Program-made: the position numbers and the translations under genes
Origin: Spiroplasma attinicola
GTDB lineage: Bacteria; Bacillota_I; Bacilli_A; Mycoplasmatales; VBWQ01
Length of the DNA stretch: 64,000 bases
Reading direction: 5' to 3'
Assembly (NCBI RefSeq): GCF_023509825.1
Contig: NZ_JAKQXY010000001.1
Location: 434,001-498,000, forward strand
Part shown: positions 55,655 to 64,000 of the stretch, one piece after another
Position numbering within the stretch: the first letter of the stretch is position 1
How the letters are laid out: each line of letters opens with the position of its first letter
The notes under the pieces: generated by a model
What the model saw: the letters and a program-made list of their open reading frames with translations, nothing else
Database searches by the model: none
What the model was told of the DNA's origin: nothing

Positions 55655-58471
55655 ATGAAGAATGAAGATTATACAAATGAGTATGATGTAGAGAAAAAAT
55701 TCATAGAGGTTATAACTACAAATTGATATAGGTTTAATAGTTTATCTTCTTATGAAGAATTATTATTAAATTTTAGAGAAAAAATTAATTTAATTAATAA
55801 AGATGTTTTAAATAATACATTTTTGACAGATAGTGAATTTAATGAAATAGTTGTTTATCTTGAAAAGCAATCTATTTTTGAAGCATCTCAATTATTAAGA
55901 AATGCAAGAATAGATATAATTAAAAGAAATGGTCATACACTTTATTTAAAATTAGTTGATGTTAATGATATTGAAAAAAATAATTTTGAAGTTGCACATC
56001 AAATTTCTGTTGCAGGAAAATATTCTGGAAGATTTGATGTTACTCTTTTAATTAATGGAATTCCTTTTGTTCAAATAGAACTTAAAAAACCCGGAGTAGA
56101 GATTAATCAAGCATTTAATCAAGTCTTAAGATATAAAAGAGATAACAATTATATGGGTCTTTTTAACTTTGTTCAGTTATTTGTTATTTCAAATGAACAA
56201 AATACCAAGTATTTTGCTAATAATGATTTAGATGTTATGAAAATGAAAAGCAACTCATTTTTTTGATTAAATAAAAATAATAAATTGATGAATTCCCTCT
56301 ATGAATTTGAAGAAAATTTTCTTTTTTGCCCATTTTTATTTAAAGTAGTTTTTGAATATATGATAGATAGTAAGCAAGATAAAAAATTATATGTTATGCG
56401 ACCATATCAAATTTATGCTTTTGAAGCATTAAAAAAAATATGCTTAAAAGATGAAAAAAATGGATATTGTTTTCATTCTACAGGTTCAGGTAAAACTTTA
56501 ACTTCGTTTAAATTTGCTTTTGAAATGAGTCAAAAAAAAGAAATTGATAAAGTATTTTTTCTAGTAGATAGAAAAGATCTTGATGATAAAACTATTGATG
56601 ATTTTAATTCTTATATGTCTTCTTCAATTGATGATTTTACTAATATTAAAAAATCTAATTTTTTAATTAAAGATATAAAAAATAGTAGCAAGAAACTTAT
56701 TATCTCAACAATTAATAAATTAGCTTATATATTAAAGGGTAAAGTTAATGAATTAAAGGAATATAAAAATAAAAAAATAATTTTTATATTTGATGAATGT
56801 CATAGATCACAAGCAGGTCAAATGCGAAAACTTATTCAAGATTATTTTACTAATGCCCTTTATTATGGATTTACAGGTACACCTATTTTTAATGAAGAAG
56901 ATGCTAAAAATGAAAATGCAAAACTTACTTCTTTATATTTTAATAAACCAGTTCACACTTATACTTTAAAAGAAGCTATAGGTGATAGAAATGTTTTGCC
57001 TCTGTGTATTGATTATATAAAAACTGTAAAAATAAGAGATGAAACTGTTTTATTGGATAAAACTGTACAAGGAATTAACTATGAAGAAGCTTTACTTGAT
57101 GATAAAAGGTGTAATCTTGTAATTGAAGATGTATTAAAACATTTTGAACAAAAAACAGTCGGGCGAAGATATAATGCAATATTTGCTTGTCAATCAATTT
57201 CTTTATTAATTAAATATTATGATTTGCTAGTAAGTAATAAAAATAATCTAAAAATTGCTGCTATTTATTCATATAATCCTAATGAAGAAGTTAAAGAAAA
57301 TGATAATTTAGATATTGCTAAAGATAAAATGGTTGAAATCATTGAAGAATATAATAGAAGAATTGAAAATAACTCAAATTTTAACCTTACTATATATAAT
57401 CAATATGAAAGAGATGTAATAAATAACTTTAGAAATAAAAATTTAGATATTTTACTTGTTGTTGATAAATGTCTTACTGGAATGGATTTTAAAAGATGTA
57501 ATACGCTTTATTTAGATAAATCAATGAAAATGCATGGTTTAATACAGGCTATTTCCAGAACAATTAGAGTGTATGATGATCAAAAAATATGTGGAAATAT
57601 TATTTGTTACCAAACTTCTAAAAAAACTATGGATACAGCATTAGCACATTTTAATAATGATCAAGATGTTTATAATGATGTAACATTGGAACCATTAAAA
57701 ATCTTAATAGAAAAATTAAATGATGCTTATGAAAATAGTTTAGAATGCCATAGAAAAATTAGTTCATCAAAGTCTGAAATAAATAAGGTTGAGTTTGTGA
57801 AAGCGTTTCGAGAATTAATGCATTTTTATAATAAAATTAAGAATTATGTGGATTTTAATATAAATAATACAAAAATGAAAATGAAATCATATTTTAATAT
57901 GCAAAGTTCATATAAAGATATTTATATTGAAATTAAACCAGATTTAAAAAGAGAATCAATTTTAAATGATATTGATTTTGAAATAAATTTATTAAGTAGA
58001 GTAAATGTTAATTTTGATTATTTAGTAGAATTATTAAAGAATTATCAAAATGAACATAAAAATAAAAAAGGTACTAAGAATTCAATTTCTAAGATTAATA
58101 AATTAATTTTAGAAATTAATGATAAATCTAAACAAAAACTTATAAGAAAATTTGTTGATTCTTTTATGAATGAAAACGAAGAAGGGTTGTATTCAGATCC
58201 AATAAATAAATATGAACAATTTATAAATTATGAAAGAAATCAAGAAATTACAAAAATTAGTAAAAAATATAATATTGATAGAAAAAAGTTAGAAAAGATA
58301 ATTGGGAATTATTCTTTTTATCAAGATGATGTTGAACTTAATAGAAAAATTATGTATTTAAATAAAGACAATAAAAACATGGGTTATAAAGAAATTTTAA
58401 ATATGTCTAAAAATTTACCTATTGATATTAAAACTTTTTTTAATAAATACGATGCTATAATTATGTATTAA
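55655..58471 (+). CDS. hsdR: Type I restriction enzyme, restriction subunit HsdR
   Basis: Motor and nuclease subunit (938 residues). The N-terminal PD-(D/E)xK nuclease has Asp128 in GRFDVTL and Glu142-x-Lys144 in VQIELKKPG. The helicase has motif I HSTGSGKTLTS (275-282), motif II FDECHRSQAG, motif III YGFTGTPIF, and a second RecA domain with CLTGMDFKRCNTLYLDK and the motif VI-like IQAISRTIRVY. The Lys-rich C-terminal helices would bind HsdM. ATG 55655 has AAGGAG 8 nt upstream. hsdM begins 30 bp downstream. Confidence 0.95.
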
Positions 58472-58501
58472 AGATATTTGGAAGTTGGAGAAATTTGTAT
58501 A

Positions 58502-60091
58502 ATGAATCAAGAAATTAAGCAAAGAAATGAATTGCATGCGAAACTTTGAAATATGGCAGATTCACTTAGAAGCACTAGTGGAATGGAAGCTAATGAATTT
58601 AAGGATTATATTTTAGGTTTGATTTTTTATAGATATATTAGTGAACATCAAGTTAATGAATTTAATGAGAAGCTTCATATTAGTGTTAAAGATTTTTATA
58701 AAGAAGATCCAAGAGAATGCAGAAATGCTGCTATTGAAAGTTTAGCATTGGGTTATTTTATTGAACCTGAATATTTATTTGAAAATCTTGTTATTGATAT
58801 AGTGCAAGGAAAATTTGAAATAAAAAAAATAGCTGATGCTTTTAAGAATTATTCAGATTCAACAAAAGGAAAAGAAAGCGAAGAAGAACTTTCAAATTTA
58901 TTTAATGATGTTAATTTAGCTTCAGAAAAATTAGGAAAAACATATAAAGATAAAGGAGAATTAATTGCTAAATTAATTAAGTCAATAAATAATATTGACT
59001 TTAAATTTTTAGATAGTCAAATAGATGTTCTTGGTGACGCATATGAATATTTAATTGGACAATTTGCTGCTAGTGGTGGGAAAAAAGCTGGCGAATTTTA
59101 TACACCTCAACAAGTTTCTAAATTACTTAGTTTAATTGTTACTGAAAATCTTGAAAAAGTTAAATTTATTAGTGATCCTACTTGTGGTTCTGGTTCATTA
59201 TTAATTCAAGTTGCTAATAAATTAAAAGAAAAAAATATTGATTTTGCAAAAATTTATGGTCAAGAATTAAAAACTAATACTTGTAATTTAGCAAAAATGA
59301 ATTTATTAGTTCACAGTATTGATTTTAATAAATTTTCTATTTATCAAGGTGATACTCTTAAGCATCCTAGTGAAGATCAAAAAGAATATGGGAAGATGGA
59401 TATTGTTGTTGCTAATCCGCCTTTTAGTGCTATTTGAGAACCAAATGTAATGATGGAAAAAGATGAACGATTTTCAGGTGCTGGCAGACTTGCACCAAAA
59501 TCTTATGCTGATTATGCTTTTGTTGAACATATGATACATAATTTAAGTCAAACTGGATGCATGGCAGTTGTTTTACCTCATGGTCCATTATTTAGAGGTG
59601 GCGCAGAAGAAGTAATTAGAAAATATTTAGTTGAAACAAGAAATTATTTAGATACTGTAATTGGTTTACCTGAAAATTTATTTTACGGTACAACAATAGC
59701 AGCATGTATATGTGTTTTTAAGAAAAATAAGGTTAATAATGATGTTTATTTTATTAATGCAAGCAATGATTTTGATAAGGGTAAAAAACAAAATTTCTTA
59801 AGAGATGAACATATTAAAAAAATAGTTGATGCATACTCATCAAAGAAAGAGATAGAAAAATATGCTCATTTAGCGACATTAGAAGAACTTAAAAAGAATC
59901 AATTCAATTTAAATATTTCTCGATATGTAGATATATTTGAAGAAGAAATTGATAAAAAACAAGTTAAAGAAGAAATTAAACAATTATCAGGTGAAATTTC
60001 AAATTTATTAAAAGAATTTAATGAATTGGTTCCTAAAGTAGAAGAAGCAATTCAAAAAGCACTAAACTTTGAAGAAGATGAAAAAGTCTAA
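58502..60091 (+). CDS. hsdM: Type I restriction enzyme, modification subunit HsdM
   Basis: N6-adenine methyltransferase subunit (529 residues). The helical N-terminal domain (MADSLRSTSGMEANEFKDYI) is followed by GEFYTPQQVSKLL, SAM-binding motif I DPTCGSGSLLIQ, and catalytic motif IV ANPPFSAIW. ATG 58502 with GGAG upstream gives the full N-terminus, reading TGA as Trp in KLWNMADS. The stop overlaps the convergent hsdS1 stop by 4 bp, so the specificity subunit is not transcribed with hsdRM. Confidence 0.96.
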
Positions 60092-61197
60092 TGCTTATTT
60101 TCTTTTATTAATAGTTTTATAAAATTAGTTATTAGATTATCGTAATAATTTATAAGTTCATTTAATTTAATAATAAATTTATATATATTAGAATAATTAA
60201 AATTTACTATTTTTAATACTGTGTTTTCAATTAAAGATTTATTAATTGATTGTTGCGCAGAGCCACTTTTTATTAATTTAAAATAACTGATAGCATTTCT
60301 AATTTCAAAAAATAATTTTTGATTTGATTCGATTTTGGCTATTGATTGGTTAAAAGCTGTTACTTCACTTGCGAAGGAAACTTTAGATATTCTTGGTTCA
60401 ATTATTGAAAATAATATATCATATTTTTTTGCTAATGCACTTTTAGTTAAACCTAGTTGTGTAATCTTTTTGTCAGATTTTTTTGAAATAATAGTATTAG
60501 TTAATTTTCCTGAATTAATTCAGGGAATTTCTCCGTCTCACAATAATTTATTTGATGTACTAGGCGTTCCTCCTATAATAATTTTTGCAATATTTTTGAA
60601 TTTAATTAAATTGCCTTTAAGCAAATTGTAGTGTTTTTCAAAAAGTAAGATGGTTTTTTGAAGAGTTAAATTTAGTAATTTATTCATATTTTCTAATGGT
60701 TCAATAATAGCAATTAAGTTCTTCATATCAATTTGAACATTTTCTAAAGTGTCTATTCTAATACAATTTGAATACTTTAGAAAAAGCGTTTCATTTTGTT
60801 CAATAATATCTATTATTTGTTTTTGAACTTTTAAAGAAACAAATTTATTATTTATTACTCAATTAAAACTAGAAAGTCTTAACGAAGGAACTGTAGAACC
60901 TACTGAATATTTTTTAAAATTATTTGAATATTTAATTAGAAAATAATATAAATATTTATTTAATAATTTATTTGTATTGTTAGATTTTATTGCATAAGTT
61001 CTTTGGTGCAAATCAAACTTACCATTAAAATATTTTGGAGTAAAATCTCCTTCGCCAGGAACAATTATATACTCTCCATCAAATAAAAATTTATCACTTT
61101 TTTTAGCTTCTTTTGATCTATCAAAAAATATAAATTTACCTGTAGAATTTGAATCAACAGTATTTGATTTTCCATTTTTAATACTTATAACACCCAT
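60088..61197 (-). CDS. hsdS: Type I specificity subunit HsdS1 (apparently expressed copy)
   Basis: 369 residues with two target-recognition domains. TRD1 (about 5-120) starts almost at the initiator (MGVISIKNG) and ends near VPSLRLSSF; the central helix KQIIDIIEQNETLFLKY to DMKNLI (~125-160) is encoded by repeat copy A; TRD2 follows with IGGTPSTSNKLLWDGEIPWI, a classic TRD start; a C-terminal helix closes the protein. AAGGAGAG (61205-61212) lies 8 nt upstream of the ATG, and the 17-bp inverted repeat spans the ATG. It converges on hsdM with a 4-bp overlap of the stops. Confidence 0.93.
60732..60832 (-). repeat. hsdS central repeat, copy A
   Basis: 101 bp matching copy B (62418-62518) in inverted orientation with 3 mismatches, all within one 4-base block. 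Encodes the conserved central helix of HsdS1. Confidence 0.95.
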
Positions 61198-61205
61198 TAT
61201 TGAAC
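61189..61205. repeat. 17-bp inverted repeat at the hsdS1 start codon
   Basis: AACACCCATTATTGAAC; its exact reverse complement occurs at 61994-62010 around the hsdS2 start codon. The two copies enclose the recombinase gene and its control signals. Confidence 0.95.
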
Positions 61206-61259
61206 TCTCCTTTTGTATTATTTAATTTTACCTTATATAACTTTATTGGAGGTAAAAAA
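61206..61259. promoter_or_regulatory. 54-bp divergent control segment between hsdS1 and the recombinase gene
   Basis: Carries the ribosome binding sites of both genes (AAGGAGAG for hsdS1 on the minus strand, GGAGG at 61248-61252 for the recombinase) and AT-rich promoter-like boxes (TATATAA region at about 61234-61240). It lies inside the 17-bp inverted repeats, so it would turn with the segment. Confidence 0.6.
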
Positions 61260-61976
61260 ATGAAAGAATATATAAATTATTTAAAAAGAAATAAATATTC
61301 TAAAAATACAATTATTACATATAAAAGTATTTTAGAAATTTATAAAGATGATTTAAGAGATATTAGGTTGATTAAAAAAAGATTAACTTATTATTTTAAA
61401 AGTCCTAATACGGTTTGAACACACTATAATGTAATTTCTTCTTATTTAAAATGATCTAAAGATAAAAGATTAGAATTGTTAAAAGAAATGAAATTACCTA
61501 GAATTCCAAAGAAATTTATGGTTGTCTTTAATAAAAAGTATTTGTTATCAAAAACTGAAATTAAAGATATTGATAATTTGGAAAAAATTAATAAAAAAAT
61601 GATAATTAGGTTTCTATTTGAAACGGGTTTAAGAGCTTGTGAATTAAAACAAATTGTTTCAATAAATAAGAAAACAATAACAATAATTGGCAAAGGAAAT
61701 AAAATTAGAGAAGTATTTCATAATTATGAAACAACAAGCAAAATTAAAACAAGAAATGTTACAACTAAAACAATTAGATTATGAACTAAAGAAATTTTAG
61801 GAAAAAAATATACGCCTCATTCAATAAGAAGATCTCATGCAACTCATTTACTTTTAAAAGGAGCAAATCCTAAAATGGTAATGATGCAATTAGGTCATGA
61901 AAAAGTTGAAACAACATTTAGATATTTACAATTGTCAATTGATCAAAATAAAAAAATATACGACAAGTTCTATTAA
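61260..61976 (+). CDS. Tyrosine recombinase (DNA invertase of the hsdS locus)
   Basis: 238-residue phage-integrase/Xer-type recombinase. The N-terminal SAM-like core-binding domain (KRNKYSKNTIITYKSIL) is followed by the catalytic domain with Arg125 (FETGLRACEL), His187-x-x-Arg190 (TPHSIRRSHATHLLLKGAN), His213 (MQLGHEKVETT) and the nucleophile Tyr222 (FRYLQL). All catalytic residues are present. Position between inverted hsdS genes matches the site-specific recombinases that shuffle hsdS in Mycoplasma pulmonis (hsd loci) and in pneumococcal type I systems. GGAGG precedes the ATG. A strong terminator follows directly. Confidence 0.92.
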
Positions 61977-61993
61977 AAAGAACTTGTTTTTTT
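61963..61993 (+). terminator. Terminator of the recombinase gene
   Basis: Stem ACAAGTTCT/AGAACTTGT (61963-61971 with 61979-61987) followed by T7. It ends just before the 17-bp repeat at the hsdS2 start, so it would block read-through into hsdS2 in this orientation. Confidence 0.9.
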
Positions 61994-62010
61994 GTTCAAT
62001 AATGGGTGTT
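61994..62010. repeat. 17-bp inverted repeat at the hsdS2 start codon
   Basis: GTTCAATAATGGGTGTT, exact reverse complement of 61189-61205; contains the ATG of hsdS2. Confidence 0.95.
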
Positions 62011-63117
62011 TTCAAACTTAAAGATATTGCAACTATAAATATGTGCAAAAGAGTTTTTTCAAAAGAAACTTCTAAAAATGGAGATATACCATTTTATAAA
62101 ATTGGAACATTAGGAAACAAACCTGATTCGTTTATCAAGAAAGAACTTTTTTTATATTTAAAAAGTAAATATAGATATCCAGAATTGGGTGATTCATTAA
62201 TTAGTTGTAGTGGAACAATAGGTAAAGTTATAGAATTTAATGGTAAAGAAGCTTATTTTCAAGATAGTAATATAGTTTGATTAACTACATCAAAATTAAT
62301 AAAAAAATATACATATTATTGGTTATCAAAAAAACCTTTTAAAGGCACTCAATGAGGTACAATAAAAAGACTTTATAATTCAGATATAGAAAATACTTTG
62401 ATTTTTGTACCATCATTAAAAGTTCAAAAACAAATAATAGATATTATTGAACAAAATGAACTCCTTTTTCTAAAGTATTCAAATTGTATTAGAATAGACA
62501 CTTTAGAAAATGTTCAAACTGACATGAAAAACTTAATAGAAATAGTTAAACCACTAGAAATACTTAAAAATAATTTAATTAATCAATCAAATTGTTTTTC
62601 AAAATATTTAAAACTAATATCAAAACAATATAATATTTTAGAAAAAATGAATAAAAATTGTATTTTTGTTAAAGGTGAGTCAGTTTCTAATTCTTTAGAA
62701 GGAAAAACATTATTTTTAAATGTATCTGCAGCAAATAATAACCCCAATAAATATTGTGATAACGAACCAAATATTTTTCCTAAAGATATAACACTTTCAC
62801 TAGATGGTAATATTGGTCTTGTTAATAACAATTTATTAGGCTTTAATGGATATTTATATAAAATTGAATCAAAAACTATACCTAACTGACAAATATATTA
62901 TTCACTTAAACATAAAATTAATCAAAATATTATTAAATTAAATGAAACTGGCATTACTATTAAACATAGTAATAATTCAAAAAAAGACTTATTAATTTTA
63001 GATTTTAAACAAAAAATAATTTTTGAAAATATTTTTATTTTAGAAATAAATTTAAAACAACAAATAAATTTAATTAATAAACAAATCAAAAAAATGAGTG
63101 AAATATTGACTAAATAG
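62002..63117 (+). CDS. Type I specificity subunit HsdS2 (apparently silent copy)
   Basis: 371 residues, complete. TRD1 begins MGVFKLKDIATINMC and includes GDSLISCSGTIGKVIEF, a common TRD feature; the central helix (KVQKQIIDIIEQNELLFLKY) is from repeat copy B; TRD2 includes GESVSNSLEGKTLFLNVSA and LSLDGNIGLV. TRD1 and TRD2 sequences differ from those of HsdS1. Directly upstream lies the recombinase terminator, and there is no ribosome binding site (TTTTTTTGTTCAATA before ATG), so it should not be expressed in this orientation. It converges on hsdS3. Confidence 0.9.
62418..62549 (+). repeat. hsdS central repeat, copy B
   Basis: 62418-62518 matches copy A inverted (3 mismatches in 101 bp); 62443-62549 matches copy C inverted (3 mismatches in 107 bp). 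The mismatches are the same 4-base block (CTCC here, ACGC in A and C). Confidence 0.95.
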
Positions 63118-63126
63118 AAAAAATTA

Positions 63127-64000
63127 TTATTTTATTAAAAGATTTATTATGGATTTTTTAATTTCTTTAATTTTATTTTTTAAAATTAAGAATTTTATAT
63201 AAAATTCATTAATGTATTCATCATTTGCAGTTTTTTTAATCATTTTTAAATTTAAAATATCATCAATTGTAATATTTTTTTGTACAGCTCCTGTAGCATG
63301 TTTTATTAGAAAGTTATTTTGTTTTATTATTGCAATTTTAATATTTAAAGGAATATTACTTCTTAAAACTAAGGTTCTTTGATTTGAAACTCAATTATTT
63401 TCATATACTATAGAAGCAGTTCCAATTGTCCCAGATAAACCTGTAATAACATCTCCAATGTTAATTAAGTTATTCTTTGTTATATTTGTTTTCTCAAATT
63501 TAAATTTATTATTAATATTTTTAACAGTAAAAATTTTATATACTCCATGTAAATTTTTATCAGAATATTTGTATGTATAACCAGCAGATTTTCAATTTAT
63601 ATTTTCTTTAATAAAATTATTAATTTCAAAAGATCTAAAGAAAAAAGATTTTTCAATAAATTTTATTATATTCAAAATTTTATTTTCATATAATTCAAAA
63701 GGCTTAACTATTTCTATTAAGTTTTTCATGTCAGTTTGAACATTTTCTAAAGTGTCTATTCTAATACAATTTGAATACTTTAGAAAAAGCGTTTCATTTT
63801 GTTCAATAATGTCAATTATCTTTTGTTGTAGTTCTATAGTGGGAATAAAAATATTTAATTCTGAAACAGTTGAGGGATTAAATTGAGGTTGACCACTACC
63901 TTCAATGAGTTTTTTTAATTGATTTTTGTATTTATTAGTTTTAGTTCAATAATAGAAATATTTATTATTTAATTTTGAATCATCAAAATTATATCTAACT
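63127..64000 (-). CDS. Type I specificity subunit HsdS3 (N-terminus outside window)
   Basis: Open from the window end to TAA 63127-63129. The visible part holds the end of TRD1 (KLIEGSGQPQFNPSTVSELN), the central helix from repeat copy C (IIDIIEQNETLFLKY), and a complete TRD2 (INWKSAGYTYKYSDKNLHGV, then GDVITGLSGTIGTASIVYEN) with a C-terminal helix. Whether it has a start codon with the 17-bp repeat cannot be seen. Probably another silent cassette feeding TRD sequences. Confidence 0.85.
63704..63810 (-). repeat. hsdS central repeat, copy C
   Basis: 107 bp matching copy B in inverted orientation with 3 mismatches; same orientation as copy A. Confidence 0.95.

Follow-up and report, generated by a model that had tools for sequence, protein, structure and literature searches.

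Inverting hsdS systems are well known from Mycoplasma pulmonis, Listeria and pneumococcus (PMC9465063, PMC4783014, PMC4948785, PMC7394358). In M. pulmonis, inversion at the hsd1 and hsd2 loci is ascribed to the HvsR recombinase in the accounts that later papers give of the original work (Dybvig 1998; Sitaraman 2002, via PMC2268961, PMC9465063 and PMC5149525); hvsR is located near the vsa locus and not in hsd (PMC2268961). Judged from those accounts, the locus described here resembles the M. pulmonis system in being a mollicute Type I restriction-modification (R-M) locus whose hsdS genes point in opposite directions, and HvsR is likewise a tyrosine recombinase, one that acts on several types of inversion site (vip and hrs), altering specificity as well as expression. 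The 1998 work is said to have found that the M. pulmonis hsdR and hsdM genes are expressed only when inversion has brought the locus into the correct orientation to a promoter. In the Spiroplasma attinicola locus, in contrast, hsdR and hsdM lie outside: the start-codon repeats enclose a recombinase and control elements only, and it is this small segment, with its putative promoter, Shine-Dalgarno sequence (SD), terminator and recombinase, that would select an hsdS gene.

In the hsd locus of Listeria monocytogenes ST8, two opposite hsdS genes flank an integrase gene and contain a 5'-terminal as well as a central repeat; the 5' repeats invert 3.3 kb, the central repeats 2.3 kb, and four configurations have been observed (PMC4783014). 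From these sizes we infer that the Listeria genes face each other and that inversion swaps gene content. Here, in contrast, the genes are divergent and only ~0.8 kb separates their 5' repeats; an inversion would move expression signals and leave the coding sequence unchanged. Pneumococcal SpnIII/Spn556II and the inverting loci surveyed in REBASE are also among the closest known systems (PMC4948785, PMC7394358). In the loci examined in the latter paper, silent hsdS copies have neither start codon nor promoter and TRDs are shuffled into one expressed gene (PMC7394358), whereas both hsdS genes retain their start codons here. That survey used 20-bp tiles, so that a 17-bp repeat would be missed. 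The hsd cluster of M. agalactiae has an int gene, with recombination termed unknown and start-codon repeats not described (PMC9465063). By description only, the likeness is that a potential recombinase accompanies several hsdS genes in the hsd locus of a mollicute. The Hin system of Salmonella, in which a serine recombinase turns one operon on or off, also has an invertible segment with its own recombinase and promoter, but the recombinase here is of the tyrosine type and the choice would be between two genes. The primary M. pulmonis papers aside, the literature searched contains no description of a cassette of recombinase, promoter, SD and terminator that acts at the start codons of divergent hsdS genes to switch between them.

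The window, that is, the whole stretch of 64,000 nucleotides analysed, carries a Type I R-M locus: a domain profile search finds in hsdR, hsdM and hsdS the domains typical of each. The hsdR gene (55655-58471, + strand, 938 aa; HSDR_N, SWI2_SNF2 and EcoR124_C) is followed by hsdM (58478-60091, + strand, in its long reading, for which TTG at 58478 is the first possible start; N6_Mtase, E 7e-106, and HsdM_N). Then come hsdS1 (60088-61197, - strand, 369 aa; Methylase_S, E 2.6e-16) and hsdS2 (62002-63117, + strand, 371 aa; Methylase_S, E 1.5e-20). The original prediction counted these two hsdS genes; there are four at the locus, hsdS3 (63127-64248, - strand; Methylase_S) crossing the window end at 64000 and hsdS4 (64381-65556, + strand; Methylase_S) lying past it. 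They are the only Methylase_S matches in the genome, all in this one locus, which reads TGA as Trp in the mollicute manner, and all four ORFs are intact. With at least two hsdS genes, inverted repeats and a linked recombinase, the locus has the make-up of phase-variable Type I R-M genes.

The recombinase gene (61260-61976, + strand, 238 aa, with three TGA codons for Trp) lies within the putative invertible segment between hsdS1 and hsdS2. Its product is a tyrosine site-specific recombinase: the Phage_integrase domain (PF00589, E 1.1e-15; PF02899 is matched with E 1.2e-4) has the Arg, His-X-X-Arg, His and Tyr set, at R125, H187xxR190, H213 and Y222, and these residues are invariant among its relatives. 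The recombinase profile matches the XerD and XerA structures, and scores below the NCBIfam cut-offs set the protein apart from the XerC and XerD equivalogs. It is the sole PF00589 protein found in the genome (assembly 93.8% complete), and the same search of that assembly detects no separate XerC or XerD. Among the genomes compared, the closest relatives are Spiroplasma sp. A83_bin3_2 (recombinase ~86-87% identical) and S. platyhelix PALS-1 (82%). The same chromosomal place in A83_bin3_2 (from uvrA to the first ribosomal-protein genes) also bears an R-M locus; when its contig (L028:3143-7773) is compared with window positions 55655-60091, HsdR is 24% and HsdM 34% identical, next to 87% for the recombinase, as if the switch had stayed in place while the R-M core around it was replaced.

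The recombinase is enclosed by two exact copies of GTTCAATAATGGGTGTT, at 61994-62010 on the + strand and at 61189-61205 on the - strand; no further copies are found with up to three mismatches in the 64-kb window or with up to two in the 836-kb genome. The left arm includes the hsdS1 ATG (61197) and the right arm that of hsdS2 (62002). Exactly 54 bp (61206-61259) separate the left arm from the recombinase gene and form a putative divergent promoter segment, with the hsdS1 SD (AAGGAG) and a TAAAAT -10-like box on the - strand and the recombinase SD (GGAGG) on the + strand; the sequence directly before hsdS1 is AAGGAGAG. At the opposite end, a hairpin with a T run (61962-61988, + strand) is predicted to be an intrinsic terminator facing hsdS2. 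Its folding energy is -10.8 kcal/mol, none of 200 shuffles folds equally well, and a terminator scan calls the same element. SD and TAAAAT box are present on the hsdS1 side only and the terminator on the hsdS2 side only, so that in the present orientation hsdS1 has an SD and a putative promoter and hsdS2 has neither. The anatomy sketched in the original prediction (exact 17-bp inverted repeats around the recombinase and over both start codons, a terminator beside hsdS2, and a 54-bp segment with the hsdS1 ribosome binding site) is thus found as drawn, and the repeat proves unique in the genome. The promoter in the 54-bp segment is guessed from consensus boxes only; the region is AT-rich, and its 51 promoter-like hits do not exceed the 56.5 found in shuffles. 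GTAAAATTAAA and the SD of the segment recur in relatives.

Judged bare, the 17-bp repeat is weak evidence, only mildly unlikely in AT-rich DNA: 0.28 exact repeats of at least 17 bp with a loop of 0.1-1.2 kb are expected by chance per shuffled 64-kb sequence, and the window contains one further 17-bp repeat hit, of low complexity. Among flank-limited shuffles none of 200 reached 17 bp. What argues strongly for more than chance is the placement over both start codons together with recurrence in other genomes, and it is by these, not by its length, that a chance repeat is rejected. Relatives were sought in 320 genomes of the order and in named genome contigs. The arrangement hsdS(-)/recombinase/hsdS(+) with an inverted repeat spanning both hsdS 5' ends is present at 17 loci in other genomes of mollicute type, namely A83_bin3_2, S. 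platyhelix, W. lucivorax (G231), a Mycoplasma MAG (G062), the contigs L030 and L031, and G012, G042, G048, G106, G174, G185, G202, G214, G223, G229 and G314. The repeats measure 11-33 bp and contain the ATG at 15 of the 17 loci; in L030 and L031 the hsdS frame passes through the repeat from an upstream start, and no terminator is evident. An SD stands at the recombinase 5' end in most of the 17, and about 12 show a hairpin and T run on its 3' side; some of those counted have broken hsdS genes or are decayed (G048, G062 and G202). Weaker recombinase homologues (L055-L067, L082-L084, L087-L096, L099 and L100), mostly without a neighbouring hsdS, were left out. The L030 and L031 contigs are labelled Lactobacillaceae and Elusimicrobiota, but their recombinases are 67-71% identical to this mollicute one, which makes misbinning or horizontal transfer likely. 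Contig L073 has a 34-bp start-codon repeat (9304, 11746) of the same site family that joins convergent hsdS genes 2.4 kb apart, one of them overlapping the hsdM end, a layout that would swap whole genes.

The recurrence of GTTNNNNNATGG at both genes and across loci could also be taken to mean that the repeat is no recombination site and represents a conserved HsdS N-terminal motif with its translation-initiation context, and MAIYKLG is a common HsdS N-terminus in the group. That account is very improbable, for several reasons. Synonymous sites are identical within loci but differ between them (GCT/GCA, GGT/GGA, GAA at codon 2): codons 2-4, where they specify the same residue, are identical in 46/46 cases within loci versus 397/493 between. 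Exact identity across the ATG extends over 20.7 bp on average within loci versus 9.8 bp when arms are re-paired between loci; the maximum reached by re-pairing was 15.1 bp, and the observed length was attained in 0/5000 permutations, even though the G185 start used in this test lay 15 nt upstream of the proper one, an error that lowered the observed value. Such covariation is not expected of shared protein sequence and suggests arm exchange, or selection for arm identity. In the window, hsdS1 and hsdS2 have only MGV in common, their remaining N-termini differing, and the 8 bases before the ATG are also identical, though the OFF gene has no SD. The earlier proposal that both genes begin with Met-Gly-Val through the repeat gains backing from this covariation, with the qualification that MAIYKLG is so common.

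When 61189-62010 is inverted in silico, hsdS2 gains the SD and the 54-bp segment and hsdS1 gains the terminator, as had been proposed, and both proteins are unchanged. At a probability of about 0.86, we read the structure as a start-codon inversion cassette that chooses the expressed hsdS; what is said here of promoter activity, catalysis, inversion and expression in cells, and action on a second cassette is read from sequence. The segment between the 17-bp repeats would be an invertible control cassette whose tyrosine recombinase recognises a quasi-palindromic site (GTTYAATAAT-NNNN-ATTATT-like) over each divergent hsdS start codon, and strand exchange at these sites would invert the ~0.8-kb segment. 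One end of the segment would provide a divergent promoter and an SD, the opposite end an intrinsic terminator and no SD; the hsdS gene at the recombinase 5' end would then be transcribed and translated and the opposite one shielded. The recombinase would retain its own promoter in either orientation, and the switch would for that reason be reversible. Since an SD is dispensable for the translation of some mollicute genes, silencing of hsdS2 in the present orientation may be incomplete. Selection of the expressed hsdS by inversion, as originally predicted, agrees with the anatomy, the in-silico flip and the 17 loci, but the selection would be made within one pair of a four-gene array.

The prediction of a single start-codon switch, apt for hsdS1/hsdS2, had overlooked another cassette where the window ends. 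The start codons of the divergent hsdS3 and hsdS4 are separated by 132 bp, and exact 22-bp arms, ATAATGATTATTAATAAACTTA, span both ATGs (64230-64251 and 64378-64399, beyond the window) without a recombinase between them. hsdS3 has an SD (GAGAGG) and a GTAAAATTAAA box, the box resembling that of hsdS1 and of relatives, and hsdS4 has neither; the hsdS3 arm and flank, GTTTAATAATGATTATTAATAAACTT, show three differences over 26 positions when set against GTTTAATAATGGCTATTTATAAACTT, the site common among relatives. On the hsdS4 side the best fold has a z of -1.2 and the terminator scan gives no hit, so that a clear terminator is not established there. This recombinase-free cassette would probably be inverted in trans by the same recombinase.

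The consensus assembly carries a single orientation, the comparison is of one genome per species, and a search for the flipped copy in viral contigs gave no match. Between species, the recombinase 5' end adjoins different hsdS genes: the one nearer to hsdM in the window, A83_bin3_2, G214, L030 and G314, and the one farther from hsdM in the 11 other scored loci. Orientation of the module relative to hsdM requires four changes on the recombinase tree and shows no clustering there (of 500 shuffles, 206 and 224 are equally low), and the window and S. platyhelix, of one genus, differ. These differences fit an active switch. The cassette might instead have inverted in ancestors and now be locked in this genome, with variation invisible in a consensus assembly in any case; L097 and L098 have decayed, with broken recombinase or hsdS frames, and the hsdS of L022 is truncated. 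Such a frozen relic is distinctly unlikely here, however: the arms are exact (17/17 and 22/22), the recombinase is intact with all catalytic residues, and the four hsdS ORFs and the terminator are intact.

Central repeats of 146-209 bp at 81-96% identity link all four hsdS genes. They contain a DIIE motif, in sense ATAATNGAYATTATTGAAC and in antisense GTTCAATAATRTCNATTAT, the latter close to the start site sequence, GTTCAATAATGGCTATTAT. Codons of this motif are identical in 71/72 cases within loci versus 641/792 between (0/5000 permutations), and in 59/60 versus 437/540 when the two window pairs are removed; the within-locus excess of identity fades inside ~30 nt on either side. Candidate central recombination sites are at 60798-60816 in hsdS1 (+ strand; antisense GTTCAATAAT-ATCT-ATTAT), at 62434-62452 in hsdS2 (- strand), which shares the ATCT centre, and at 63801-63819 in hsdS3 (+ strand), whose GTCA centre is common to hsdS4. 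In the repeats themselves (60690-60837, 62413-62560, 63694-63865 and beyond the window), the upstream half pairs hsdS1 with hsdS2 and hsdS3 with hsdS4, and the downstream half pairs hsdS1 with hsdS4 (96% over 146 bp downstream of the central site) and hsdS2 with hsdS3. The mixed pairings point to earlier exchange from one cassette to the other, and the whole suggests pair-specific central recombination with older cross-pair exchange.

The central sites thus probably recombine too, and inversion might serve chiefly to shuffle TRDs or gene content by way of the central repeats, the start-codon site being secondary or decayed. As the principal function this is rather unlikely: start-arm inversion alters no coding sequence, so the start sites would not stay identical for shuffling, and the constant polarity of SD and terminator relative to the recombinase fits a choice of expression. 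Shuffling and the start-codon switch can, however, coexist. The two had been held to be separate, which is so physically but perhaps not enzymatically: the central sites resemble the start sites and only one tyrosine recombinase is found in the genome, so that a single enzyme probably serves both the start-codon choice and the shuffling of domains, with the proviso that the common core could partly be a coincidence with the conserved DIIE codons. Recombination of a start site with a central site was considered and set aside; despite the common GTTCAATAAT, the two run in opposite directions with respect to the gene, and their 4-nt centres are not the same. A more elaborate scheme, possible but doubtful, has one recombinase operating four independent switches with common arms and different 4-bp centres: GGGT at the hsdS1/S2 starts, GATT at the hsdS3/S4 starts, ATCT at the hsdS1/S2 centres and GTCA at the hsdS3/S4 centres. 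Sites would recombine only with partners of matching centre, start sites choosing one gene per pair and central sites shuffling target domains within the pair. If so, each pair would yield four HsdS variants, eight in total, with two expressed at once.

In most inverting Type I systems, the choice of the active specificity gene and the make-up of its product are altered together; the start-codon cassette would take the two tasks apart. It would be self-contained, with a recombination site that doubles as translation start. The layout is spread over Spiroplasma, Williamsoniiplasma, mycoplasma and related genomes, and the culturable relatives S. platyhelix and W. lucivorax would suit a study of how one recombinase may keep several switches apart. 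For insect-associated mollicutes, it predicts epigenetic heterogeneity.
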